A DNA stretch of 31,334 nt from a virus. The stretch's first letter is position 1. Every line of letters starts with the position of its first letter. Shown here piece by piece: positions 2,190-30,125 of this stretch. The translations under genes were made by a program, and so were the position numbers. The stretch lies in the IMG/VR virus record IMGVR_UViG_3300017951_002381, positions 1 to 31,334 of that record. One strand, given 5' to 3'. Below the pieces are notes generated by a model, which searched no databases, had not been told where the DNA came from, and saw nothing but the letters and a program-made list of their open reading frames with translations.

Positions 2190-4160
2190 CTATCCCTCAC
2201 AAGCACGACACTCCTCTGACTGTTGTGCATTTGAGGCATCCAACTTCATCATGAGATCGTCGTATCCGCCCACGTATTCACCTTCAATGTAAATTTGTGG
2301 GACGGTGGTTACTCTTCTGCCGGTTACTTCCGCGGCGGTTTTACCGATTTCTTCGAGATCGACCTTATCAAAAGGTATACCTCTCAGTTTTAGTTCCTCC
2401 ATCGCCATGGCACAGAAGGGACAATTCTTTTTAGAATAAACTATAGACCGGTTGTCATCTTGCAAGGCGACACGTTCTACTTTCTCTGACACGTTTTCTG
2501 CACGAGACTTTGCCTCTGTGCGTAGATAGTACAAACCCTTTAGACCCTCTTTCCACGCCTTGATGTGCACTCTGTTCACATATGACTTAGGTGCACCTGC
2601 GGGGAAGAATAGGTTGACAGACTGACCTTGACAGATGTAAGGTTGTCGATCTGCGGCATGTTGTACCACCCAGTTCTGGTCAAGTTCTTGTGCGGTCTTA
2701 AATACCGCCTTCTCACCTTCATTCAAGAATGGTAGGTGTTGCACCGATCCTTTCTGAGTGATGATCGATGTCCAAGTTGATTCGTTGTTCTCACCCTTTT
2801 CTTCGAGTAGTTCTTCAAGGTATCTGTTCTTCACAAGAAAAGAACCCGCACGTGTGCGATGCGTATACGCATTCGCCTTATTTGGTTCTATAGAGGGAGA
2901 GGTTGACAGGATAACTCCGCTGGAGGCATTTGGTGCAATCGCCATAAGATGAGAATTCCGTCGACCTGAACCCACGCCGTCTGGGTATTCCCCACGCTCA
3001 ATAGCGAGGAGTTCGGTTTCGGATACGGCTTCGTCGCGGATGTGACTAAACACAACGTCGTTGATTTCGCTTGCCTTATCAGATTCCCATGCAACGGCGT
3101 GTTTTTGGAGAAGTGAGTGGAAACCCATTGCTCCGAGTCCGAGCGATCTTTCTCTTGTTGCACTATACTTTGCTCTTGAGACGGTGTCGGGAGCGTTGTC
3201 AATAAAATACTGCAATACGTTATCAAGCATCCTAATAAGATCCCGCACAATAGTGGTATCTTTCCATTCATCATAATACTCCAGATTAAGTGAGGACAAA
3301 CAACAAACTGCGGTTCGATCTTCACTCGTAGGTAGGTGGATCTCATTACACAAATTTGACCCGTTGATCCGCAACCCCAAATCTTTCAAGGGTTGTGGTA
3401 AGTGTTCGTTTGCGGTATCGATGAAATTTAGATAGGGTTCACCTGTACGGAAACGAACTTCTAGGATTCGTTCCCACAACTTACGTGCATTGATAGACTC
3501 TTTGACCTCTCCATCTTTAGGGTCACGTAAATCAAAGTCTGTGTTATCGATCACTGCCTGCATAAACTCATCGGTGATATTGAGTGCGTTATGAAGGTTC
3601 AATGCCTTTCGTTGCACATCACCTGTAGGGATACGCATATTCAAGAACTCTACGATATCGGGGTGTGACACGTCCATATACGCAGCATACGACCCCTTAC
3701 GTGTCCTACCTTGACGGTAGGCAATCATGTCTGCGTCTACGGTGTGGAGAAAAGGTATTGGACCAGGCGCGACATCTGATACTGTTCTAACGTCGGACCA
3801 ATGTCCACCAACACCGCCGCCATAAACACTAAGCCAACGCAGTTCAGAAGTATGATCAATGAGTCCTTCAAGAGTGTCCGGAACGTAGGTAAGGAAACAT
3901 GAGATAGGCATACCCTTGCCTTGTCCATGCCCGTTCGGAGCATTCGATAACACTGGCGAAGCAAACATAAACCATTTTTTAGAGACGTAATCATAGAGTC
4001 TCTGCGCGAGGTCATCGTCTCCCGCAGACCACGCGATCGACGCACGTCTAAATCCTTCTTGTGGTGATGATTCATATTCGTTGAGGTAAAAGTCTTTTAA
4101 CATCCCGACTGCATAGTCTTGTAAGAGAGAGTCGCGGGATTGATCTAATTTAACAGGCAT
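2190..4160 (-). CDS. nrdA: ribonucleoside-diphosphate reductase large (alpha) subunit fused to glutaredoxin
   Basis: This 656-aa protein reduces ribonucleotides. The core covers about residues 1-560 and has the active-site cysteines C88 (MPISCF) and C286/C287 (TAVCCLS), the N269-x-C271-x-E273 catalytic triad (NLCNE), and the radical-transfer pair in LYYLRT near 545. There is no N-terminal ATP-cone domain, so dATP allosteric shut-off is probably absent. A complete glutaredoxin follows at about 570-640, with a CPFC active site at 580-583 and a TVPQIYI cis-Pro motif. The usual C-terminal redox pair (CRAC, 651-654) comes after it, so the reductant is inserted between core and tail. A consensus sigma70 promoter lies just upstream. 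The gene precedes the methyltransferase, iscU and nrdB in one apparent operon. Confidence 0.96.
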   Translation of the reverse strand: MPVKLDQSRDSLLQDYAVGMLKDFYLNEYESSPQEGFRRASIAWSAGDDDLAQRLYDYVSKKWFMFASPVLSNAPNGHGQGKGMPISCFLTYVPDTLEGLIDHTSELRWLSVYGGGVGGHWSDVRTVSDVAPGPIPFLHTVDADMIAYRQGRTRKGSYAAYMDVSHPDIVEFLNMRIPTGDVQRKALNLHNALNITDEFMQAVIDNTDFDLRDPKDGEVKESINARKLWERILEVRFRTGEPYLNFIDTANEHLPQPLKDLGLRINGSNLCNEIHLPTSEDRTAVCCLSSLNLEYYDEWKDTTIVRDLIRMLDNVLQYFIDNAPDTVSRAKYSATRERSLGLGAMGFHSLLQKHAVAWESDKASEINDVVFSHIRDEAVSETELLAIERGEYPDGVGSGRRNSHLMAIAPNASSGVILSTSPSIEPNKANAYTHRTRAGSFLVKNRYLEELLEEKGENNESTWTSIITQKGSVQHLPFLNEGEKAVFKTAQELDQNWVVQHAADRQPYICQGQSVNLFFPAGAPKSYVNRVHIKAWKEGLKGLYYLRTEAKSRAENVSEKVERVALQDDNRSIVYSKKNCPFCAMAMEELKLRGIPFDKVDLEEIGKTAAEVTGRRVTTVPQIYIEGEYVGGYDDLMMKLDASNAQQSEECRACEG

Positions 4161-11548: not shown

Positions 11549-11634
11549 TATTGATCTCCTTTTAGTACGTGACCCCACTTACCCCACGCCCATGTCGCGG
11601 CGGCTCCTACTACTACTCCAACAATAAATTCCAT
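11548..11634 (-). CDS. 28-aa hydrophobic mini-protein
   Basis: A 28-codon ORF coupled at both ends by TAATG overlaps, its stop shared with the next ATG. The product has one hydrophobic segment (EFIVGVVVGAAATWAW) followed by a basic tail, so it is a possible single-pass membrane peptide. Its stop region carries the ribosome-binding site of the next gene. The coupling and lack of any gap on either side support translation. Confidence 0.55.
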   Translation of the reverse strand: MEFIVGVVVGAAATWAWGKWGHVLKGDQ

Positions 11635-12887
11635 TACTTGCCTCCTTTTGGCGGTGTCTTGTCTCCTACTCCAAGATTATCATTACCACGAGACTTTGCT
11701 TGCTTTGTTACACGACCCGCTTTTGATGCGTCATCGTGTCCCACTGTGACTGGTGTGATGTCCGCTTCCTTCGGATCATCGATACCATTCTCTTTACCCA
11801 TATCCTGTGCGCCCTTACCCTTGAACTTGTCGAGCATTTTCTTCTCGCCATCATGGGCACCCTTGGTGTGCTGGTCACGTTTTTCTGTAACCGCATCACG
11901 AAGCATTCGACCCAAACGGACTCCATAAGACTCACCCATTCGAGATTGCATTTCCTTCTGCTTCTTGTTGGCAGCATCAGTGTGACCTTGTGCAATTTTA
12001 GAATGTGCGTGTGCCTTTTCATGATTACCGTCAGAGTGATACTCCATAGCCTTCATGTGCGCCTTCTGTGCACGATCATGCATTCTTGCAAGAACTTTGT
12101 GTTGGTCTGCACTGTGATCATTGCTTCCACCCTTCCGTGCTTGTGCTTCGTGATGTCGCGCTTGATCGTCATGGTGATCTATGTGATCGTCATGATGTTG
12201 TGCTTTCTGAGCATTAAACACCTCTTGAACTTTATGCTTCTTCTGAGCGTGCATGTGATGCTTTTCTGCGATGATTGTCAAAGACTCTACGGGAACATTT
12301 ACTTCGACACCGTGCTCGAACATTACGTCGTAGTGAGTTACAACACCTGAACCATCTTCCTGTTCTACGAGTGTGTGCTGACCGGATATGCACTCACCGT
12401 AACCCCACTGTTCAGATGTAACGTGTGTTGCACAGTCGTGCTTCAGTGCCTTGTTAGCAGACTTCGAATCGAGATCGTCTTCTAACTTTTTCTTATCAGA
12501 CTTCTCTGCACGAGGACAGTCGGGTTCATGGTTTTCCATAGACCCACCGCAGTCTGGACACTTCTGCATCTCATCTGCCGCTTCCTTCTGCATTGCTTTA
12601 CCGATCGCCTTACGACGTTTGTGTAGATACTCATCTGAAGAATCTACATCACCATCGTTATCGATGTCCTTGTCCTTACGGTTTGCAAACTTCTTCTTTG
12701 CTGCCTTAGGATCTACTTTGTCCAGACCCTCACCGTCGTCAGACTGGTCGTTAGACGCGTCGTCTGCAAACTGGTGTTTGACTTCTGGTTCTGGTTTCTT
12801 AGGTTGTGGTGGCTTTGGGGGAGTGTTTGCCTTTTCGGTCACCTCCGCCCACAGTTCTGCCATTTTTTTAATCAACATTGGGTTCAT
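11634..12887 (-). CDS. His-rich, EF-hand and zinc-ribbon modular protein, probable internal virion protein
   Basis: This 417-aa highly charged protein has an N-terminal helix, a Pro-rich linker, a DxDxDG calcium loop at residues 74-85 (DIDNDGDVDSSD), a Cys4-type knuckle at 110-125 (CPDCGG...DCPR), a small beta domain (about 150-208), a His-rich region with 20 His in residues 210-302, and a Lys/Gly-rich tail. It is likely a multi-module virion or prohead-core protein: the same EF-type loop followed by an RRKAIGKA helix is familiar, from memory, in T4-like marine phage structural proteins. It may bind Ca, Zn or Fe. GGAG precedes the ATG by 7 nt. Confidence 0.8.
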   Translation of the reverse strand: MNPMLIKKMAELWAEVTEKANTPPKPPQPKKPEPEVKHQFADDASNDQSDDGEGLDKVDPKAAKKKFANRKDKDIDNDGDVDSSDEYLHKRRKAIGKAMQKEAADEMQKCPDCGGSMENHEPDCPRAEKSDKKKLEDDLDSKSANKALKHDCATHVTSEQWGYGECISGQHTLVEQEDGSGVVTHYDVMFEHGVEVNVPVESLTIIAEKHHMHAQKKHKVQEVFNAQKAQHHDDHIDHHDDQARHHEAQARKGGSNDHSADQHKVLARMHDRAQKAHMKAMEYHSDGNHEKAHAHSKIAQGHTDAANKKQKEMQSRMGESYGVRLGRMLRDAVTEKRDQHTKGAHDGEKKMLDKFKGKGAQDMGKENGIDDPKEADITPVTVGHDDASKAGRVTKQAKSRGNDNLGVGDKTPPKGGK

Positions 12888-12900
12888 TTTTTATCTCCGG

Positions 12901-13188
12901 TCAAGAAAGAAAGTTGGTTAATGTTGCACCTACTACAGTCGCAACAACACCGATGAGTGCCCAAGCGAATTTCTGCATAAATGCTACTTTTTCTACTAAA
13001 GTTACAACGTGCGAATCAATGTTGTCGATCTTTGACGACAGACGATTCATACGCTCATGTTGTTCTACGCGACGGACTTCCAAGTCGTCCATCTTTTCTT
13101 CGACGCGAGCCAACTGAATGACAGCTTCTGACATCCTATCTAATTTTTGCTCTATACGGTCTAGTCGACCAGCATTAGTTTCTGCCAT
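12901..13188 (-). CDS. coiled-coil protein with C-terminal TM (XhlA-like)
   Basis: This 95-aa protein is a heptad coiled coil for residues 5-65 (RLDRIEQKLDRM; SSKIDNIDSHVVTLVEKV) with one C-terminal TM (about 72-93, FAWALIGVVATVVGATLTNF). This resembles hemolysin XhlA-type phage proteins that localise to the membrane and assist lysis or tail function. The start overlaps the upstream stop as TAATG. The assignment is by architecture only. Confidence 0.7.
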   Translation of the reverse strand: MAETNAGRLDRIEQKLDRMSEAVIQLARVEEKMDDLEVRRVEQHERMNRLSSKIDNIDSHVVTLVEKVAFMQKFAWALIGVVATVVGATLTNFLS

Positions 13189-13529
13189 TAGTTATCTACT
13201 TTCGCCCCCGCTCTCCACTGCCAACAAGACCAATACCGTGCCTTCCACTTGGGGCCGGGGTTGTCGCAGTTATGTCTTGCGCGAAATGACTTGCGTCTTG
13301 CTGGGTCATCTCGCTTGATTTCCATATCTGGTGAACCGAAAGATACCTTTACCACATTACCTTTCTCGTTCTTGGTATACACATAGAACTTTTTAGTACC
13401 ACCACGCACGGGATCATTCAGAGTAACTTTCTTACCCTGATACTCCGCTTCGGTGATCTCCAGATCTTCGTACAGTGACTCGCACTTACAATCGATTTCG
13501 TCTGCCCGATGATCTTTAAACTTCTTCAT
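13188..13529 (-). CDS. small virion-type protein with capsid-targeting-like N-terminus
   Basis: This 113-aa protein begins MKKFKDHRADE, sharing the MK[KT]FK...E start with its neighbours. The C-terminal half carries the striking segment KRDDPARRKSFRARHNCDNP followed by a Trp/Cys-rich end (KARYWSCWQWR). From memory this end recurs in structural proteins of marine T4-like phages. CKC at 14-16 plus later Cys could bind metal. The start lies 14 nt inside the preceding gene, with GAACGA before it. I expect it in the virion. Confidence 0.75.
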   Translation of the reverse strand: MKKFKDHRADEIDCKCESLYEDLEITEAEYQGKKVTLNDPVRGGTKKFYVYTKNEKGNVVKVSFGSPDMEIKRDDPARRKSFRARHNCDNPGPKWKARYWSCWQWRAGAKVDN

Positions 13530-13761
13530 TTTCGTTCCCTTTCGACTTCAGATAGTCGGTTGCGCTATCAAGGTAGTCGTTTGCTTTTGTAATTTTGTTT
13601 TGAACCCATTCTGGAAGATTGTCATCGTCACCCAACATCTTCATCAAGTCTTGTGCATTCCGCACAATGGTCTTGAGTTGAGTCTTCGCCATTTCCCCTT
13701 CTTGATCATATTCGTTAGGGTCTTTGTCTTCTCTCAGTCTTAGGTTTTTAAACGTTTTCAT
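13516..13761 (-). CDS. small helical virion-type protein with capsid-targeting-like N-terminus
   Basis: This 81-aa protein starts MKTFKNLRLRE, a good match to the T4 capsid-targeting sequence, with an L-x-E end as used by the T4 prohead protease. The rest is helical: EMAKTQLKTIVRNAQDLMKM, then DDNLPEWVQNKITKANDYLD. From memory this second part is common in marine T4-like phage virion proteins. A TATAAATA box ends 5 nt before the ATG and there is no ribosome-binding site, so the mRNA may be leaderless. Confidence 0.8.
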   Translation of the reverse strand: MKTFKNLRLREDKDPNEYDQEGEMAKTQLKTIVRNAQDLMKMLGDDDNLPEWVQNKITKANDYLDSATDYLKSKGNENEEV

Positions 13762-13782: not shown

Positions 13783-14544
13783 TTATTGAATGTACATATT
13801 CAATTCATACGACTTACCCGTGTTGTAGACCTGAACGTGCAGATTACGACGCGGGTTATTTGTTTTGAGAATGTAACTATTCGTCTTACCCGTAGATGGT
13901 TTACGAGGACCAGAAGCAACCTTGTCATCGATCTCTGAGTCTTTGACAATCAAACCCTTTTTCTTGGCAAAATCATACGCATGTTTCATTGCCATAGAGA
14001 AATCTTTGTGGTATAGGTCATACCCACTGGCAGACTTACTTGCGTCTCTCTTCTCAGTGACTCTCTTCGCGGTTGCGGTTGCGATCGCCATCTTTTTGTC
14101 CATAGGCATATCAGGGTTATCACGTTGGATTGCTTTTGCGATCTTCTCTCTTTTCTTTAACTCATTTGGAGTAAGAGTTTTTTCTCGCATGATGCGACCG
14201 CGCACCATCTTGAACCCACCTTTCTTGAGTATAATCGCAACTCTGTCACGTGGATCAGTGTCCATTGTTCGGACGTGATGCATCAACTCTTTGTTCGCCT
14301 TGTCCTGTACATTGACGTTAGAGTTTCTACCGATTTTACGCACCAACGTCGCAGTCTTTTCGAAGTCGTCTTTGTCAATACCACCATGCTTCTTGGCGTA
14401 GGTATCCAATTCTTTTGCAGTCTTCTCATAGTCGACTGCCTCGTTCTTGGGTTTCTCTCCACGTTCTTTTTTAGAGATTGCAATCGCTGCCTGTTGTGCG
14501 GCAGAGACTGCTTCTTTCTGACGAACCTCTTTAAATTTTTTCAT
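13783..14544 (-). CDS. modular internal virion-type protein
   Basis: This 253-aa very basic protein begins MKKFKEVRQKEAVSAAQQAA, the shared N-terminal signal. A module with KNEAVDYEKTAKELDTYAKK follows, then a basic helical part (NELKKREKIAKAIQRDNPDM) and a C-terminal beta-rich module (SYILKTNNPRRNLHVQVYN). I chose the ATG at 14544 since AAGGG lies 8 nt before it and the motif aligns with neighbours; the longer frame adds 30 residues that overlap the previous gene. A packaged, DNA-associated internal protein is likely but unproved. Confidence 0.78.
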   Translation of the reverse strand: MKKFKEVRQKEAVSAAQQAAIAISKKERGEKPKNEAVDYEKTAKELDTYAKKHGGIDKDDFEKTATLVRKIGRNSNVNVQDKANKELMHHVRTMDTDPRDRVAIILKKGGFKMVRGRIMREKTLTPNELKKREKIAKAIQRDNPDMPMDKKMAIATATAKRVTEKRDASKSASGYDLYHKDFSMAMKHAYDFAKKKGLIVKDSEIDDKVASGPRKPSTGKTNSYILKTNNPRRNLHVQVYNTGKSYELNMYIQ

Positions 14545-14548
14545 CTCT

Positions 14549-16405
14549 TTACCCTTTGCCGAGTAGTTCTTTTGCTTTGGCACGGTCGTGGAATCTGAAC
14601 TGACGATTCTTACCGTCTTTGTCATCTCTGACAATGTAACCTTGTGCCGTTACCTTTGTGATCTTACCCATTCTCTTGGTACCAGAACCATCGTAGTAAT
14701 CTAACTCAAGACCGACTCGTGCTTCACCTTTCTTCTCTGTACCCATACCCTTCACGGCAAGTTTACGAAAGTCTTCATTCACGGTATCTTCTCTAACACC
14801 TGCAAAAATATCTCTCAACTCTTCGAATGACTTGGGTGCGTTGTGGTCAACAGACTCTTTCTTCCAACTACCACCTGCTGCCTTATACTTTTTTGCTGCC
14901 CAGCCATTTGCGTAAGCGCTGGGATATACATCAAATTTCGCCTTTGCCTGCGCCTTAAACTTCGCCCAGAGTGAGGGATTAGTTGGTACGTTCTTCTCAT
15001 CGAGTGATTCTTCTGCGAGTTCCCAACCCTTTTTCAGATATTCTTTCTCTTTACCCTTATCGATGACGATGACCTTTCCTTTCTTAACGACCATTACATC
15101 TTTCTTGGGGTCTTTCATCTGACGTGCTTCTTCGACTGACTCTTTGACCAACCCACGTTTAATCAACTCTTTTGTGACCGACCTTATGATTTCACCCTTT
15201 TTGCCTTTGTACTTACGGTAAAACATCATCAACTCTTTATTAGTCTGCTTTGACACATTCATCTCTTCGAGTTCGACCGACTCATTGATCTTATAAGACT
15301 TCATGGATGCCGCCATATCACCAAGTGCAAGTGTTGCGTCTTTACCACCACGACTGTACAAGAAGAACTTCATACCGCCTGGCTTACCCTTCAACTGCAT
15401 GGTAACCTTGTCCACGTTATACTTGTTACTTCGTGATTTACTTTTCACAACAAAAGTGTTGGTAGTCCCAGAACGGATTGATGAGTCATAGGTGATCGTG
15501 ATCTCATCTCCCTTTTTTAGTTTATCAAAATCCGACCGCGTCACGGTGGCTTCGTTGATTGATTCTTTCACTGCTTTTTTCTCCTCCGTGTTATAAGTCA
15601 ACTTCATGATTGGACCCATCGCACCTTTATTGTAAAGTCCGTGTTTGGTCAGAAGTTTTCGTATCTCTTTACCTTCTTCTTTATCGAAGGTGTTGTTGAC
15701 AATACCCTGAATCCTTGATGCAGATTTCTGTATAATTTCTTGACCCTTAATATCAGAGTATCCAGTTTTAGATTTACCACTCTGCATCATCCTCATTCTT
15801 AACGCGATCGTTGATAATGCATCTCCGACAGATTGGAAGTTTCTATCCTTGTTTCTATCAAACTCCCGTGCGGCCGTCTTGAACTTATTGATGTTAGACG
15901 ATTCGTTGACTGATTCCTTCATACCCTTAATATGATTGATAGCTGCTTGCTTTGACTTGGTAAATGATTGAAAGGTCTTCCACTCTTTCCCGTCAATGTG
16001 AACAACAACGGGGTCAGTCATCTTTTTGCCTTTACGGAAATGTGTGTGAGTGTGGTCTTTACCATTCGCATCCTTGTAAACATAGGAAGCAATAAATTTC
16101 ATTCCTGCGGGAACCTTCGATGCTTCGTTGACTGATTCTTTTTTATCGGTCTTAACCATAATGGGTTTATTCCCTGTGCCTGGCCGATCCGCCATAGGAT
16201 CTTGTCTTCTCTTACGTCGCGCAGATGATGCACGGTCCTTTTTACTCATCGAGTGTGCCTTGTCGCGGGGCATACACTTAGGTTTACCCTCGCCTGGCTC
16301 TCGTGCACACTGTCCTTTGATCTCTCCATCGGTACCGACACGAACCCAATCACCTTTCTTGCCCTTACCGAACCACTTACGTAGATCTTCGAGTTTACTC
16401 TCCAC
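14549..16405 (-). CDS. 618-aa modular protein with repeated E-S-V-N-E linkers, probable packaged polyprotein
   Basis: The protein is a chain of small, unrelated, basic modules separated by a repeated short motif. It occurs as KESVNEAS (89-96), KESVNESS (163-170), KESINEAT (280-287), INESVELEE (373-381), KESVEEAR (421-428), EESLDEKN (465-472), KESVDHN (516-522) and EDTVNEDF (539-546). Most copies contain hydrophobic-x-Glu, the type of site cut by T4 prohead protease gp21 (L/I-x-E). Module 1 (LRKWFGKGKKGDWVRVGTDG) and the PSLWAKFKAQAKAKFDVYPS module (477-496) recall small DNA-virus domains of unknown function (DUF5872-like, from memory). The start is a GTG at 16405 with a distant AAGGGG. It overlaps the nucleotidyltransferase stop by 11 nt. 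Confidence 0.8.
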   Translation of the reverse strand: MESKLEDLRKWFGKGKKGDWVRVGTDGEIKGQCAREPGEGKPKCMPRDKAHSMSKKDRASSARRKRRQDPMADRPGTGNKPIMVKTDKKESVNEASKVPAGMKFIASYVYKDANGKDHTHTHFRKGKKMTDPVVVHIDGKEWKTFQSFTKSKQAAINHIKGMKESVNESSNINKFKTAAREFDRNKDRNFQSVGDALSTIALRMRMMQSGKSKTGYSDIKGQEIIQKSASRIQGIVNNTFDKEEGKEIRKLLTKHGLYNKGAMGPIMKLTYNTEEKKAVKESINEATVTRSDFDKLKKGDEITITYDSSIRSGTTNTFVVKSKSRSNKYNVDKVTMQLKGKPGGMKFFLYSRGGKDATLALGDMAASMKSYKINESVELEEMNVSKQTNKELMMFYRKYKGKKGEIIRSVTKELIKRGLVKESVEEARQMKDPKKDVMVVKKGKVIVIDKGKEKEYLKKGWELAEESLDEKNVPTNPSLWAKFKAQAKAKFDVYPSAYANGWAAKKYKAAGGSWKKESVDHNAPKSFEELRDIFAGVREDTVNEDFRKLAVKGMGTEKKGEARVGLELDYYDGSGTKRMGKITKVTAQGYIVRDDKDGKNRQFRFHDRAKAKELLGKG

Positions 16406-17870
16406 CGTTCAACTGCCCCTTGTGTTTCTGGTATCCACGTTTTGCGTCTTTCTTTCTGTCCCTGTGCGTTGCAGCTTTGTTAAATCTGTTCATGTTCTTC
16501 GCGACAGGATTAGATTTGATACCCGCTGGTGGATGTGGTCTGTCGTATTTTGATTCGTTTGGATCTGTCTCACGGTTCTTACGACGTGCACGTGCAAGTC
16601 TTGCGCGATCCAACATGCTGTCATGTCGAACTGCATCCTGTTTCTTCTCTCGATCGATACGTGCCTTCGCCTGTTTCACTGCATCTTCATCGACATCTTG
16701 GCCGGGAGTCATCTTTTTCGCTTTCTTGGTCGCTTCAGGTGTACCCCAGTCTAGTTGATAATTCTCTCTTTGGAGTGTAGGGTAGTCAATAAGGTGTTTG
16801 GGTAATGCACCCGCCTTTACCATGTCTCGTAACACTCGATCGATAACGCGGATGTCACCACCCGTCATCTGTGCAACTTTACGTAGGTTTGCAGACGCCT
16901 TGCCGGGATTCTTTTTACGCAAATCCAAGAACATTCTTACAACCTTTTCGTACTTTTTCTTGTGAGCGTTGCGGTCAAAGAACATCTTGATCATGTGGAA
17001 TGTGTCTTTCTCGACAAGGTCTTCGAGATCTCTCCATCTCATTTCTTTGGTAGACTCTATGAGTTCTACATCATCTATCCAATGTCTGCGAACACCATCA
17101 CCGATATCAACAATAACGTAATTGGTACCAAGGCGATGTATAGTCCCTGTATCGCCAGATCGCGTTCGGACTTGATCTCCTTCATTGAACAGTTCTCCCT
17201 CGATATACTTTTCACGTGTCTCAGATACGGGTTCAAGGTTTATCTTATTCTTGAACTCTTTAACTTCTTTCAGACCCATACCCACGCGAACGTCATTGAA
17301 CAGTTTCTTTGCGTCCCTGTTGTTCATCTGTGTAGGTACACCCTGAGAAAACGTTGTGAAATCATTTTTCTTTGCAGACTCACGTTGACGTGTCGCGGAC
17401 ATTCCTGACTCACCATCCGCGTCTGGATCACGATCCGCACTAGCCATCACATTGATGTTTTCGAAGTTATAGAATCCGTGCCGACCTTTCTTGCCGTTGT
17501 ACTTGTTTAGAAGCGCCTCAAACTCTGTTTGACGATCCTGACCAACGACCATGTTGATCTTGTTGAATCCTTGTTCGTAGAGTTTGGTCGCGACATCAAA
17601 GACGGTGCGTGATCCCTTATCCATAATCACATTACGTGCGTGTTTAGGATACATCTTACGGACGTGTTTGATTTTCTGTTCGTAGGTCAAAGGGTTCTTT
17701 CGAGCGTCCTGTGACTGCGACAGATAGACCATGTACGGAGTCTTGCCCGCCTTTGCGGACATGACATTCATGAGTCTACCGTGACCGATATGAGGCGGAT
17801 TCATGCGACCATACGTGAAGTAGATCTCACGTTCCTCTTCGACCAAATATTGTTTAAACGATGGTATCAT
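16395..17870 (-). CDS. cytidylyltransferase-fold nucleotidyltransferase fused to virion-type modules
   Basis: This 491-aa protein starts MIPSFKQYLVEEE, which resembles the T4 capsid-targeting signal with an L-x-E site. A nucleotidyltransferase domain follows at about 15-185, with GRMNPPHIGHGRLM (HxGH, ATP/CTP phosphate binding), VVGQDRQTEF, and SATRQRES in place of the usual ISSTxxR. This fold covers NMN adenylyltransferase and cytidylyltransferases; the substrate is unknown. Then come a KOW-like beta module (FNEGDQVRTRSGDTGTIHRL), a helical module (DTFHMIKMFFDRNAHKKKYE) and a very basic tail. If the N-terminal signal works, the enzyme is packaged in the head (inference). The TAATG start is coupled to the previous gene. 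Confidence 0.85.
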   Translation of the reverse strand: MIPSFKQYLVEEEREIYFTYGRMNPPHIGHGRLMNVMSAKAGKTPYMVYLSQSQDARKNPLTYEQKIKHVRKMYPKHARNVIMDKGSRTVFDVATKLYEQGFNKINMVVGQDRQTEFEALLNKYNGKKGRHGFYNFENINVMASADRDPDADGESGMSATRQRESAKKNDFTTFSQGVPTQMNNRDAKKLFNDVRVGMGLKEVKEFKNKINLEPVSETREKYIEGELFNEGDQVRTRSGDTGTIHRLGTNYVIVDIGDGVRRHWIDDVELIESTKEMRWRDLEDLVEKDTFHMIKMFFDRNAHKKKYEKVVRMFLDLRKKNPGKASANLRKVAQMTGGDIRVIDRVLRDMVKAGALPKHLIDYPTLQRENYQLDWGTPEATKKAKKMTPGQDVDEDAVKQAKARIDREKKQDAVRHDSMLDRARLARARRKNRETDPNESKYDRPHPPAGIKSNPVAKNMNRFNKAATHRDRKKDAKRGYQKHKGQLNGGE

Positions 17871-18396: not shown

Positions 18397-18966
18397 TTAA
18401 ATCTCGTTTGCGTACCTGTGATTAACTTCTGCGTGTTTTTCTTCATCTTTACGTATTCGTTCAATCATGTGATAGACGTGTGAGTCCTTTCTCATATTGT
18501 AGTACTCAATAGCAATCTCTGGTGCTGGTGGATTATCTAGTACACCTTTACGGATCAACATCAAATACGTGTCATAACTCTTCACCGCTTCCTCTTCAAA
18601 ATACGCAGTCAACCTGTGTGCGTACTTCGGAAAGAAAATGTACAACGCCAAGTAGTAGTGCCAGAACACACCTTGAATGACGTACACCATAAACCTCTCG
18701 AAAGCGTTTGGTTTCACTACCTCCATCATGAACATCAAGTGTTTGCGTTCGTTCTCCGCTTCTGCAAGTAACTCGTGGATCTTTGCACCGTTCCCGCGTT
18801 GCATACGTCGCAGTGATCTCAGGTGAGTGACCATACCGCCCACCATGCCTGGCACTCCGGCGACTGTCTCTAGAATCAGTGCACGTTTATCATATCGTTT
18901 TCGAAACCAAAGGTCCGCAAATACGCGAAATGCTTTGGTCATTCCTCTTGCAAGTTTGTCTCTCAT
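18397..18966 (-). CDS. aox: alternative oxidase (ubiquinol oxidase, AOX/PTOX family)
   Basis: This 189-aa membrane-associated diiron quinol oxidase passes electrons from ubiquinol straight to oxygen without pumping protons and without haem. All ligand motifs are seen: LET (E33), NERKH (E73, H76), EEEA (E125 region) and DEEKHAEVNH (E175, H178). Interfacial helices (VAGVPGMVGGMVTHLRSL; FWHYYLALYIFF) fit the monotopic fold. It is shorter than plant AOX because it lacks the N-terminal extension, as bacterial forms do. I chose the ATG at 18966 because GAGGGT precedes it by 4 nt; the longer frame uses TTG. It lies in a late transcription unit with a phage unknown gene. Confidence 0.93.
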   Translation of the reverse strand: MRDKLARGMTKAFRVFADLWFRKRYDKRALILETVAGVPGMVGGMVTHLRSLRRMQRGNGAKIHELLAEAENERKHLMFMMEVVKPNAFERFMVYVIQGVFWHYYLALYIFFPKYAHRLTAYFEEEAVKSYDTYLMLIRKGVLDNPPAPEIAIEYYNMRKDSHVYHMIERIRKDEEKHAEVNHRYANEI

Positions 18967-18967
18967 A

Positions 18968-20350
18968 CTAACCCTCAATTTTTGCGTATGGTCCAGAGAA
19001 ACTGTTTTTGGACCCCGCGTAAAAATATAGATCCTTAACGATCTTGTCTTGAACTGTCGATGACTGATTGTTTAGTATCGACGCAATCTTAAATCCAAGA
19101 TACTTCGAGTACCTCCACTTCGGAGACTGTTGCATCGACAGTATCTTATGTTGACCCCTGTCGGGTAGATTGTTAATACCCAACGAATTTGCCATGTCGT
19201 ATATTTCCTCCACCAATCTATCGTCTTTTGTTCGAACTCGTGTTGCGATAGATTCACTTGTGGGAAGTGTGACTCTAGCGTGTTGTTTAAAAATGAATGT
19301 CGCGGGTCCAAGCGACACCTTTCCTTGGTTCGCAGACTGACCCTTGATTTCCCCCTGAAATCCTGTAAGTCCATCACCATCACCAAATGATCTGAACTGA
19401 ATACGGTCGTATGCGTTTACACCGAACTTGAGATAGATGTCCATCGAATCATATATGGTGGCACGATCATTAGCTTTCAATGTGAAACCCCTAAAACCAA
19501 CCGTTGAGGATGTGGTCTCTTCAAGGTTCAACTCAGAGAAAAGAACGGTAGAACTTTCGATCTTTTTGAGTGACACCCCTACGACCTTTTTTTCCTTATA
19601 CAGTTTCTTCATCTCACCGTTGAGTCCCTTTAGACTTTTTGATCCGGTGATAGATGACATGTCATGACCGCTTTTGATCATGTACATGTCTGCTGGAGAC
19701 CATTTGTTCAAGTTACCGAACGCACGTTCTTGACGGTTGACCAACTTGAATGTATTCTCGATCTCATCGACCTTACCACTACCACGGTGAAATCGATAGT
19801 CGGTTACACTTCTAAACTTGTCGTAGAGTTTGTTTGCACCTAGTATCGATGATTTAACCCAGTCGTCGGGTAACTGTTTCATGTTCTCCAATGGTTCGGT
19901 TACGTCGATATAATTACTGGCGGTTTCGAATTGTGCAGGAGAAATGATTTCATCCAGTGACAGTTTTCTTCTGAAAACATACCAGACCAATGCACAATAA
20001 AGACACTGTGCAGATTCTACCAACGCGGTGACATCGGAACCCGCACCTGAACCACCACTACCACCACCAAACTCATCGGTCTTTTTCAGACTATCCATGC
20101 GGATAAGGGTGCCGGTCGTCGCGTCTTTGAAAAGGTTTTGATTACCCTTCAACGATTCTAGGTTACCGTCCTCGAACTTCTTTCCTATGTCATCCGTTGC
20201 ATAATCAAGAATCTTTGACGTGCCATTCAAGAGTTCGAAAGGTTCCCTGCTCGCGATTTTCGAAACAAGTAACGTGTATCTCAGTTTTGGATGTTCTGGA
20301 TGTCTAGGCGCAAATTCCTTGGACAACTCTCTTAGTGATAGTTTCGACAT
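18968..20350 (-). CDS. 460-aa late protein of unknown function
   Basis: No family is recognised. The protein is soluble, with a Gly/Ser-rich hinge at about 95-105 (GGGSGGSGAGS), then a helix with two Cys (ESAQCLYCALVWYVFRRK). The later half is beta-rich and includes DRIQFRSFGDGDGLTGFQGE and FIFKQHARVTLPTSES. It starts behind a TATAAATA late promoter with a strong GGAGG, so it is likely made in large amounts late in infection. A structural protein or packaged enzyme is plausible. Its stop is directly followed by the oxidase gene, so the two are co-transcribed. Confidence 0.8.
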   Translation of the reverse strand: MSKLSLRELSKEFAPRHPEHPKLRYTLLVSKIASREPFELLNGTSKILDYATDDIGKKFEDGNLESLKGNQNLFKDATTGTLIRMDSLKKTDEFGGGSGGSGAGSDVTALVESAQCLYCALVWYVFRRKLSLDEIISPAQFETASNYIDVTEPLENMKQLPDDWVKSSILGANKLYDKFRSVTDYRFHRGSGKVDEIENTFKLVNRQERAFGNLNKWSPADMYMIKSGHDMSSITGSKSLKGLNGEMKKLYKEKKVVGVSLKKIESSTVLFSELNLEETTSSTVGFRGFTLKANDRATIYDSMDIYLKFGVNAYDRIQFRSFGDGDGLTGFQGEIKGQSANQGKVSLGPATFIFKQHARVTLPTSESIATRVRTKDDRLVEEIYDMANSLGINNLPDRGQHKILSMQQSPKWRYSKYLGFKIASILNNQSSTVQDKIVKDLYFYAGSKNSFSGPYAKIEG

Positions 20351-28892: not shown

Positions 28893-30107
28893 TTAGAATT
28901 GGTCCTCTTCCGTTGACCCTGCAAACGCCGCTGTCGAACCGCTTCCAAGCGCCGTTGTAATCGCGTCGAAATAGGACACTCCGACTTCTTTTTGGTGTTT
29001 GGTACTGGTGTACCCATATTGTTCTGCATGGAATTCTGCCTCTTGCAAATCCGCGTATGCCAACATGCCGTCACTTTTGTATTGACGGGCGAAGTTAAAC
29101 ACCGACAGATTCGTTGAATGAAATCCCCCTAATGTAATGAACTGGAACACAAATCCCATCTTGGCCAGTTCCCCTTGAAACTCACGTAACTCTTTGTTAC
29201 TTGGAATCGACTTCCTCCAGTTGAACGATGGTGAACAGTTATACGCTAACATCGCATCTGGAACCGCACCCTTCACTGCGTCTGCGAAACGCTTCGCTTC
29301 TTTCAGACATGGTTTGGATGTCTCACACCAAACAAGATCCGCGTACTCTGCGTATACTTGACCACGTTCACATCCATAGTCGAGACCCACCCCGTCTTTG
29401 ATCTTGAAGAATCCTTCGGGTGTTCTCTCTCCGGTGATAAACTTTCTGTCCAGTTCGTCTATATCAGATGAAAGTAACTTAGCAGACTCAGCATCAGTTC
29501 GAGCGATGACCACAGTATCAGTACCGGCAACATCACTAGCAAGACGGGCAGCATTAAGGTTACGCACAGCATTAGATACAGGTATAAGAACTTTTCCTCC
29601 CAAGTGACCGCATTTCTTTTCAGATGCGAGTTGATCCTCGAAATGGACTGCCGCAGCTCCTGCATCGATAAGGTTTTTCGCAAGTTCGTAGGCATTTAAA
29701 ACTCCTCCGAATCCTGCTTCAGCGTCGGCGATGATGGGAGCGTACCTAAACCCCCTTCCAGACTCCAAATAGGAGATTTGGTCTTGACGTTTAAATGCAT
29801 TATTGATAGAGCGCACAACGTCAGGAACGCTATTGACAGCATAAAGGGACTGATCCGGATAAACGTCTTGAGTAGAGTTTGCCGCCGCGGCGACTTGCCA
29901 CCCCGAACAGTAGATTGCTTTGAGTCCCGCTTTAACGTGTTGGACTGCTTGTTGACCATTGTAAGCTCCAAAGGTATTGATATAAAGGTAATCACGAAAC
30001 ATGGCGCGTAGATTGTGCGCTTGGTCCCGTGCGAATTGATTTGTATAATGCCGCGACCCGCGAAGTTTTTCAACTACCTGCGGATCATAATCTCGTTTCT
30101 TTTTCAT
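28893..30107 (-). CDS. aceA: isocitrate lyase
   Basis: This 404-aa enzyme cleaves isocitrate to glyoxylate and succinate, the first step of the glyoxylate shunt. It aligns from memory with E. coli AceA along its full length: YCSGWQVAA (66-74), ADAEAGFGG (128-136), the catalytic loop KKCGHLGGK with Cys166 (164-172), NCSPSFNW, FQFITLGGFH and the terminal GSTEEDQF. It lacks only about 25 N-terminal residues of the E. coli protein. The ATG at 30107 has GGAGG 5 nt before it. No malate synthase is in the window, so glyoxylate would be used by host enzymes. It is intact and likely active. Confidence 0.96.
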   Translation of the reverse strand: MKKKRDYDPQVVEKLRGSRHYTNQFARDQAHNLRAMFRDYLYINTFGAYNGQQAVQHVKAGLKAIYCSGWQVAAAANSTQDVYPDQSLYAVNSVPDVVRSINNAFKRQDQISYLESGRGFRYAPIIADAEAGFGGVLNAYELAKNLIDAGAAAVHFEDQLASEKKCGHLGGKVLIPVSNAVRNLNAARLASDVAGTDTVVIARTDAESAKLLSSDIDELDRKFITGERTPEGFFKIKDGVGLDYGCERGQVYAEYADLVWCETSKPCLKEAKRFADAVKGAVPDAMLAYNCSPSFNWRKSIPSNKELREFQGELAKMGFVFQFITLGGFHSTNLSVFNFARQYKSDGMLAYADLQEAEFHAEQYGYTSTKHQKEVGVSYFDAITTALGSGSTAAFAGSTEEDQF

Positions 30108-30125
30108 AATCACCTCCCGATGATT

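Follow-up and report, generated by a model that had tools for sequence, protein, structure and literature searches.

A 618-aa protein encoded by a T4-like marine phage is, with good probability, a cargo polyprotein of the T4 internal-head type, predicted to be cleavable by gp21. With somewhat less assurance, we think it probable that marine T4-like phages carry true head-cargo polyproteins, in which up to about eight interchangeable mini-effectors would be freed in the capsid by the maturation protease, the cleavage site acting as a standard connector through which a phage could combine injected proteins from a common pool in new ways. The DNA analyzed, a 31,334-base fragment of the phage genome, is called the window throughout. 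The ORF lies on its minus strand, from a GTG at 16405 to a stop at 14549, and matches phrog_727 (E 7e-13).

An earlier note on this DNA had placed eight E-S-V-N-E-like linkers in the protein, and we found each of them at the residue it gave. Six fit its motif, [KE]-[ED]-[ST]-[VIL]-[NED]-E, strictly (residues 89, KESVNE; 163, KESVNE; 280, KESINE; 421, KESVEE; 465, EESLDE; and 539, EDTVNE), and two need a looser form (residues 373, INESVELEE, and 516, the degenerate KESVDHN). Their number is far above that in shuffled sequence: the note's regular expression matched six times, whereas 5000 shuffles gave 0.0 matches on average and never more than 1. There were also seven ES[VIL] strings where 0.44 are expected, and seven [VIL]xE strings followed by A or S where 0.91 are expected. 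Among relatives the consensus is longer, K-E-[SE]-V-[ED]-[LIMQ]-[DNE]-E/[AK] (a slash within a sequence marks the edge), and ends in L/I/V-x-E. We conclude that the protein is modular and that the linkers are the edges of its modules (Table 1).

Table 1. Segments of the polyprotein and neighboring genes in the window.
Feature	Coordinates	Strand	Remarks
Polyprotein ORF	14549..16405	-	618 aa, pI 9.8, nine linker-separated segments
Module 1 (res 1-94), DLRKWFGKGKKG domain	16124..16405	-	Common to S-CREM2 virion protein gp160
Linker 1, KESVNE/A	16124..16141	-	
Module 2 (res 95-168), ASKVPAGMKF...	15902..16123	-	Closing linker KESVNE/S 15902-15919; P1=E in 6/7 contexts
Module 3 (res 169-285)	15551..15901	-	Closing linker KESINE/A 15551-15568
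Module 4 (res 286-381), beta domain	15263..15550	-	Closing linker INESVELEE 15263-15289; homologs in C48C1, Melnitz
Module 5 (res 382-426)	15128..15262	-	Closing linker KESVEE/A 15128-15145
Module 6 (res 427-470), ARQMKDPKKD...	14996..15127	-	Closing linker EESLDE/K 14996-15013; P1=E in 22/22 left contexts
Module 7 (res 471-515), DUF5872-like KNVPTNP...	14861..14995	-	Pfam 23.5 bits, cut-off 27.5
Linker 7 + internal CTS-like string + linker 8 (res 516-544), KESVDHNAPKSFEELRDIFAGVREDTVNE/D	14774..14860	-	Acidic, low pLDDT, short helix
Module 9 (res 545-618), SH3-like small barrel (weak)	14552..14773	-	
Upstream gene, cytidylyltransferase/NMNAT-like, N-terminal CTS-like SFKQYLVEE	16395..17870	-	Homologs are virion proteins in S-CREM2, S-SCSM1
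Downstream gene, likely start ATG 14544 (MKKFKEVRQKEA, CTS-like)	13783..14544	-	TLTPAEL + SGYELYH modules, also inside relatives' polyproteins
Small gene MKTFKNLRLRED..., CTS-like N-terminus	13516..13761	-	
Small gene, CTS-like start MKKFKDHRADE, internal ITE/AEYQGKKV	13188..13529	-	
Modular gene with DNDGDVDSSDEYLHKRRKA module	11634..12887	-	Module common to S-SCSM1 virion protein gp280
phrog_1462 gene	18968..20350	-	Homolog of S-SCSM1 virion protein gp282, E 2e-64

All modules are basic (pI 9.0-10.1), and the short linker/CTS segment has a pI of 4.9. Two rows from the annotated phage collection were left out of an alignment for AlphaFold2. Module 4 with its two linkers was predicted as a compact beta domain (10-residue blocks at pLDDT 70-90), which starts directly behind KESINE and stops close to the following linker; the residues on either side are mostly below 50. 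Module 9 was predicted with moderate confidence as a small SH3-like barrel, the segment before it being disordered except for a short helix. Foldseek returned weak SH3/Tudor-like resemblances only, sequence searches of the PDB gave nothing notable, and module 5 had no homolog at the threshold used. By Pfam, the window polyprotein matched only DUF5872 and RHH_6, both below their cut-offs, and its relatives matched DUF3008. The idea that several modules are domains known from unrelated DNA viruses stands only tentatively, the DUF5872 match falling short of the Pfam cut-off here.

The modules share a rule at their edges. We gathered every distinct upstream context for eleven module starts and found that the preceding residue (P1) was almost always Glu and that P3 was mostly hydrophobic, the remaining upstream residues being unrelated. 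For the DUF5872 module, rates were taken only from an unbiased set, the contexts fetched with the whole window protein, in which P1 was Glu in 27 of 27 and P3 was L, I, V, M, or F in 26 of 27. The other DUF5872 set is biased, its query having contained ESLDE; its 12 exceptions mostly look like stand-alone genes of other viruses with the domain just behind Met (e.g., MA/SPKPTNP). P3 was L or I in 71 of 92 DUF5872 contexts; in the window itself it is often V. The ARQMKDP module had Glu at P1 in 22/22 contexts and a hydrophobic P3 in 20/22, and the GAENYT module had both in 14/14; in the background, Glu makes up 7% of residues, and P3 is hydrophobic for 27% of these. The DUF3008 module offers a natural control: within phage polyproteins or behind a leader its edge had Glu in 11/11 contexts (LEE/K, LDE/K, VNE/K, LRE/K), and in cellular genomes it has its own Met start at that edge (MP/ATSKAQQ, 10/10). 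Thirty further viral DUF3008 copies are stand-alone genes with a Met start. A tblastn search of annotated phages with the 45-aa DUF5872 module gave no match, probably owing to the short query or filtering, as S-BM3 carries the module.

The reported cleavage site of T4 gp21 lies behind L/I-X-E (PMC9026906), and a site of this type, as in the T4 internal proteins, lies at the edge of the modules. The proposal that the hydrophobic-x-Glu core follows the rule of the T4 prohead protease thus held up, and the core coincides exactly with module edges across many contexts that are otherwise unrelated. In T4 IPIII, an Asp in place of the Glu blocks processing. Cutting by gp21 at the linkers would be the best explanation of the edge rule.

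The linkers might instead be DNA-level recombination seeds that shuffle modules and have no role in the protein. Three 26-nt copies of linker DNA are detectable as direct repeats, and among the E-S-V codons of five polyproteins 100 of 232 comparisons match where codon usage predicts 86.1, a slight excess that makes some recombination at linkers possible. However, synonymous codons vary nearly as by chance, so the constraint on linkers is mainly on the protein; the left contexts VLNE, YIEE, LIE, and LLE have only the L/I/V-x-E rule in common, not DNA; and the amino acids of the linkers were largely seen to be conserved despite fully diverged DNA. On the codon comparison we mostly rejected the linkers as DNA repeats for recombination, and a role confined to DNA seems highly improbable.

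At the same edges, modules also follow N-terminal leaders. In T4, the capsid-targeting sequence (CTS) consists of the 10 N-terminal residues of IPIII; positions 4 and 7 are important for targeting, positions 8 and 10 for processing (PMC9026906). The leaders of stand-alone module genes appear to resemble it. GAENYT stands behind MKTFKDIRE at gene starts and behind ESVDE inside one polyprotein (L059); KNVPTNP stands behind MITFKQLLE or MIKFTELLE leaders and, inside polyproteins, behind ESLDE, ESVELEE, or ESVDLEE; and DUF3008 is found behind a CTS-like leader in MIDFFQLRE/KAVSQAQQ. To judge from these sequences, CTS-like leaders and linkers are interchangeable at the same module edge. The N-terminus of the window polyprotein has no canonical CTS. 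CTS-like strings also occur inside several polyproteins, MKSFWDIRE being one example; the window protein has KSFEELRDIF at about residues 524-533.

This exchange bears on the possibility that the protein is a "polyvalent" multidomain virion protein, packaged uncut and ejected whole, with the linkers as flexible joints. Phages are known to encode polyvalent proteins of 2-15 domains (PMC5512222), and the linkers are predicted to be disordered, but flexible joints need neither a P1 Glu nor a P3 Leu/Ile/Val at every edge, nor need they trade places with CTS-like leaders at one and the same residue. We regard an uncut protein as unlikely.

Stand-alone phage DUF3008 genes (L250:17490-17699, L299, L308, L311, and others) have no N-terminal leader. 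Their C-terminal tails read TFKEFLEYIE, TYKEFIEYIR, or RLKELVKEVMTEE, which bacterial homologs lack, and are possibly a C-terminal capsid-targeting signal.

The predicted protease occurs in relatives. A protein search found gp21 in 5 of 6 large module-carrying environmental records and in 3 of 3 isolates (Methylophilales phage Melnitz, C48C1, and S-CREM2), and Melnitz and C48C1 have gp21, gp22, and gp23 in the usual order. In the window, a genome fragment, gp21 was not found, by a search that was uninformative since the Pfam protease family matched no control either. Where read, gp23 of relatives has FLTE/T, FLSE/A, FLAE/S, or LNE/V near residue 50-57. From their position these are presumably the capsid protein cleavage sites, and with L-x-E at the expected place the lineage's own inferred capsid cleavage rule matches the linkers. 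The same rule governs the T4 core proteins, which gp21 cuts at several sites (PMC9026906), and the chain could be a prohead core (scaffold) protein that gp21 breaks into pieces and that mostly leaves the head before the DNA is packaged, as T4 gp22, gp67, and gp68 do. Yet its modules are basic, relatives have a separate gp22, and homologs are found in mature virions, making a scaffold a very unlikely identity.

As expected of a cargo polyprotein whose modules come and go like beads, relatives show modules gained, lost, and reordered when module orders are compared across loci. A scan of viral contigs yielded 80 loci related to the polyprotein, in whose translations the modules recur in different orders and in different genes. 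The locus L030, for example, reads DUF3008, ESLDE, a module, KESVELDEA, module 4, KESIEE, the SGYELYH module, ESVNEA, module 2, ESVELDEA, and another module; SGYELYH lies within the polyprotein here and in L005, and in the downstream gene in the window. The linkers of relatives are often longer (KESVELDEA, EEVEQIDEA) and have the same ending, L/I/V/M-x-E. Many module-1 proteins of relatives have few ES[VIL] linkers, so the number of sites varies widely. BLAST alignment ends were noisy, with 30% of starts at most 3 aa from a site versus 12% at random. The polyprotein and its relatives combine several different domains per polypeptide in mosaic architectures, a feature of the polyvalent type; typical polyvalent domains (ParB, MPTase, ART, methylase, primase, and similar) were absent from them by Pfam.

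Homologs of the polyprotein and of its neighbors are virion proteins in two cyanophages, S-CREM2 and S-SCSM1, which supports the assignment of the protein to the virion in the earlier note. Table 3 of the S-CREM2 study lists proteins detected by mass spectrometry in CsCl-purified virions, including gp160 with 7 unique peptides (PMC10665884). In this protein, NLEE links the module-1 domain to a short Cys module, which EISE links in turn to a DUF5872-like domain; BLASTP aligns it with the window protein at module 1 (E 9e-7) and module 7 (E 1e-4), and both match phrog_727. The GenBank record of S-SCSM1 labels the products of five consecutive genes virion proteins (gp089, gp282, gp281, gp280, and gp279), a label that, from the paper, we take to mean detection by mass spectrometry (PMC9602691). 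Of these, gp281 is an NMNAT with the N-terminus MKSFLQFLKEA, and gp279 (69 aa) is a lone DUF3008 module (82% identity). The authors of both studies state that non-structural proteins were possibly carried over in CsCl purification (PMC9602691, PMC10665884). By homology, the window polyprotein is likely packaged in the virion. A multidomain protein that acts inside the cell and outside virions, as an early host take-over or DNA-binding factor, would suit a window that lies near metabolic, not structural, genes, and the proteomics come from homologs, not from this phage; against it, the gp160 homolog and the syntenic S-SCSM1 block are virion-associated, and we give such a role very little credence.

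The polyprotein start overlaps the end of the cytidylyltransferase gene by 11 bases, and the ATG at 14544 comes 4 bases after the polyprotein, so the block reads as one operon. The closest match to the window cytidylyltransferase is that of phage C48C1 (59% identity), and most of the other close ones come from cyanophages. A domain similar to the gene at 13188..13529 is found in Melnitz at the end of the cytidylyltransferase gene.

Several metabolic genes, all on the minus strand, lie in the window. An alternative oxidase (18397-18978; Pfam AOX 3.5e-66) sits within the cargo block and is kept in L004 and L007. A member of the isocitrate lyase family (28893-30113; Pfam ICL, 4.5e-88), a glyoxylate-shunt enzyme, seems unusual for a phage. 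The window also encodes a ribonucleotide reductase large subunit with a glutaredoxin domain fused C-terminally (2190-4160) and a homolog of the NifU N-terminal (iron-sulfur scaffold) domain (1118-1534), which is also annotated in C48C1.

The upstream cytidylyltransferase gene follows a strict T4-derived CTS rule. Applied to S-CREM2, this rule picked 4 of 213 ORFs, and all four are on the virion list, with a chance of about 0.002 (about 45 of 206 genes are listed) for a rule applied after some N-termini had been seen. A looser pattern was only modestly enriched among virion proteins (5/26 vs 7/161, P=0.014), so that the strict rule performed better. Enzymes on the S-CREM2 virion list with CTS-like N-termini are a SAM hydrolase (MKDFDSFLEE), a kinase (MKRFDAFLTEE), a cytidylyltransferase (MKNFSSFLTEA), and a Cas9-like protein (RFASFMAEA).

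The last of these, annotated Cas9/Csn1 (OR473000, 7704-10313; L247), has RFASFMAE/A near its N-terminus, which suggests an injected nuclease. In C48C1 (OQ984149, 61824-68408), the cytidylyltransferase gene and the polyprotein homolog stand amid five genes whose CTS leaders are of the strict T4-like type, and this cluster lies near ribonucleotide reductase genes, as in the window.

In the literature searched, the nearest in kind are the T4 internal proteins, the ejection proteins of giant phages, and polyvalent proteins. T4 IPI, IPII, IPIII, and Alt (PMC9026906) share the L/I-x-E rule and would also share small basic virion proteins, CTS-like leaders, a gp21-type protease, and a variable set of cargo genes, but each T4 cargo has its own gene and one N-terminal CTS, whereas here a chain holds up to about eight domains with a site between each pair. 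The polyprotein appears to work like these proteins; its membership of the class is only partly established, because the window protein lacks an N-terminal CTS and its cleavage is predicted rather than observed. Polyvalent proteins (Iyer et al. 2017, PMC5512222) also have many domains per phage protein, mosaic architectures, and predicted co-packaging with DNA; their domains are largely enzymatic, some with an embedded peptidase, whereas here very small basic domains would be cut apart by the head-maturation protease. The ejection proteins of phiKZ and SPN3US (PMC10052503, PMC9026906) are packaged in the head and cut behind x-x-E by a gp21 relative at several sites per propeptide, but these multiple sites lie in discarded propeptides, the mature part is one protein, and the SPN3US rule is A-x-E. 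T4 gp22, gp67, and gp68 are each cut by gp21 into several peptides and differ in serving as a scaffold that is largely cleared from the head rather than as modular cargo. None of the three nearest kinds is described as a chain of cargo domains with a cut at each junction, and we found no earlier description of such a polyprotein in this literature, which covered few subscription papers and no bioRxiv preprints.

In the mechanism we propose for the cargo polyprotein, one gene would yield about eight small basic domains in a single chain, which would enter the prohead core, probably aided by the internal CTS-like element (KSFEELRDIF...) and its basic charge. During head maturation, a gp21-type prohead protease would cut each L/I/V-x-E linker behind its Glu and so release individual proteins of 5-13 kDa, which would remain with the DNA and be ejected into the host. 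Linker cleavage, targeting by the internal element, ejection, and function are steps that we infer. Domains could be added, lost, or swapped among the polyprotein and neighboring cargo genes without harm to either neighbor, because every domain would carry its own protease site at its edge.

A rule of this kind (a CTS-like leader, or L/I/V-x-E at a module edge) would flag injected proteins among the thousands of uncharacterized genes of marine T4-like phages and would account for many unidentified ocean phage proteins. It would explain the NMNAT/cytidylyltransferase, SAM hydrolase, kinase, and Cas9-like proteins that were found in cyanophage virions and that their discoverers were unable to distinguish from contaminants. 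Confirmed cleavage would make this, to judge by the literature searched, the first cargo polyprotein from the head of a tailed phage, and it would offer a natural toolkit with which many proteins could be loaded into a single capsid.
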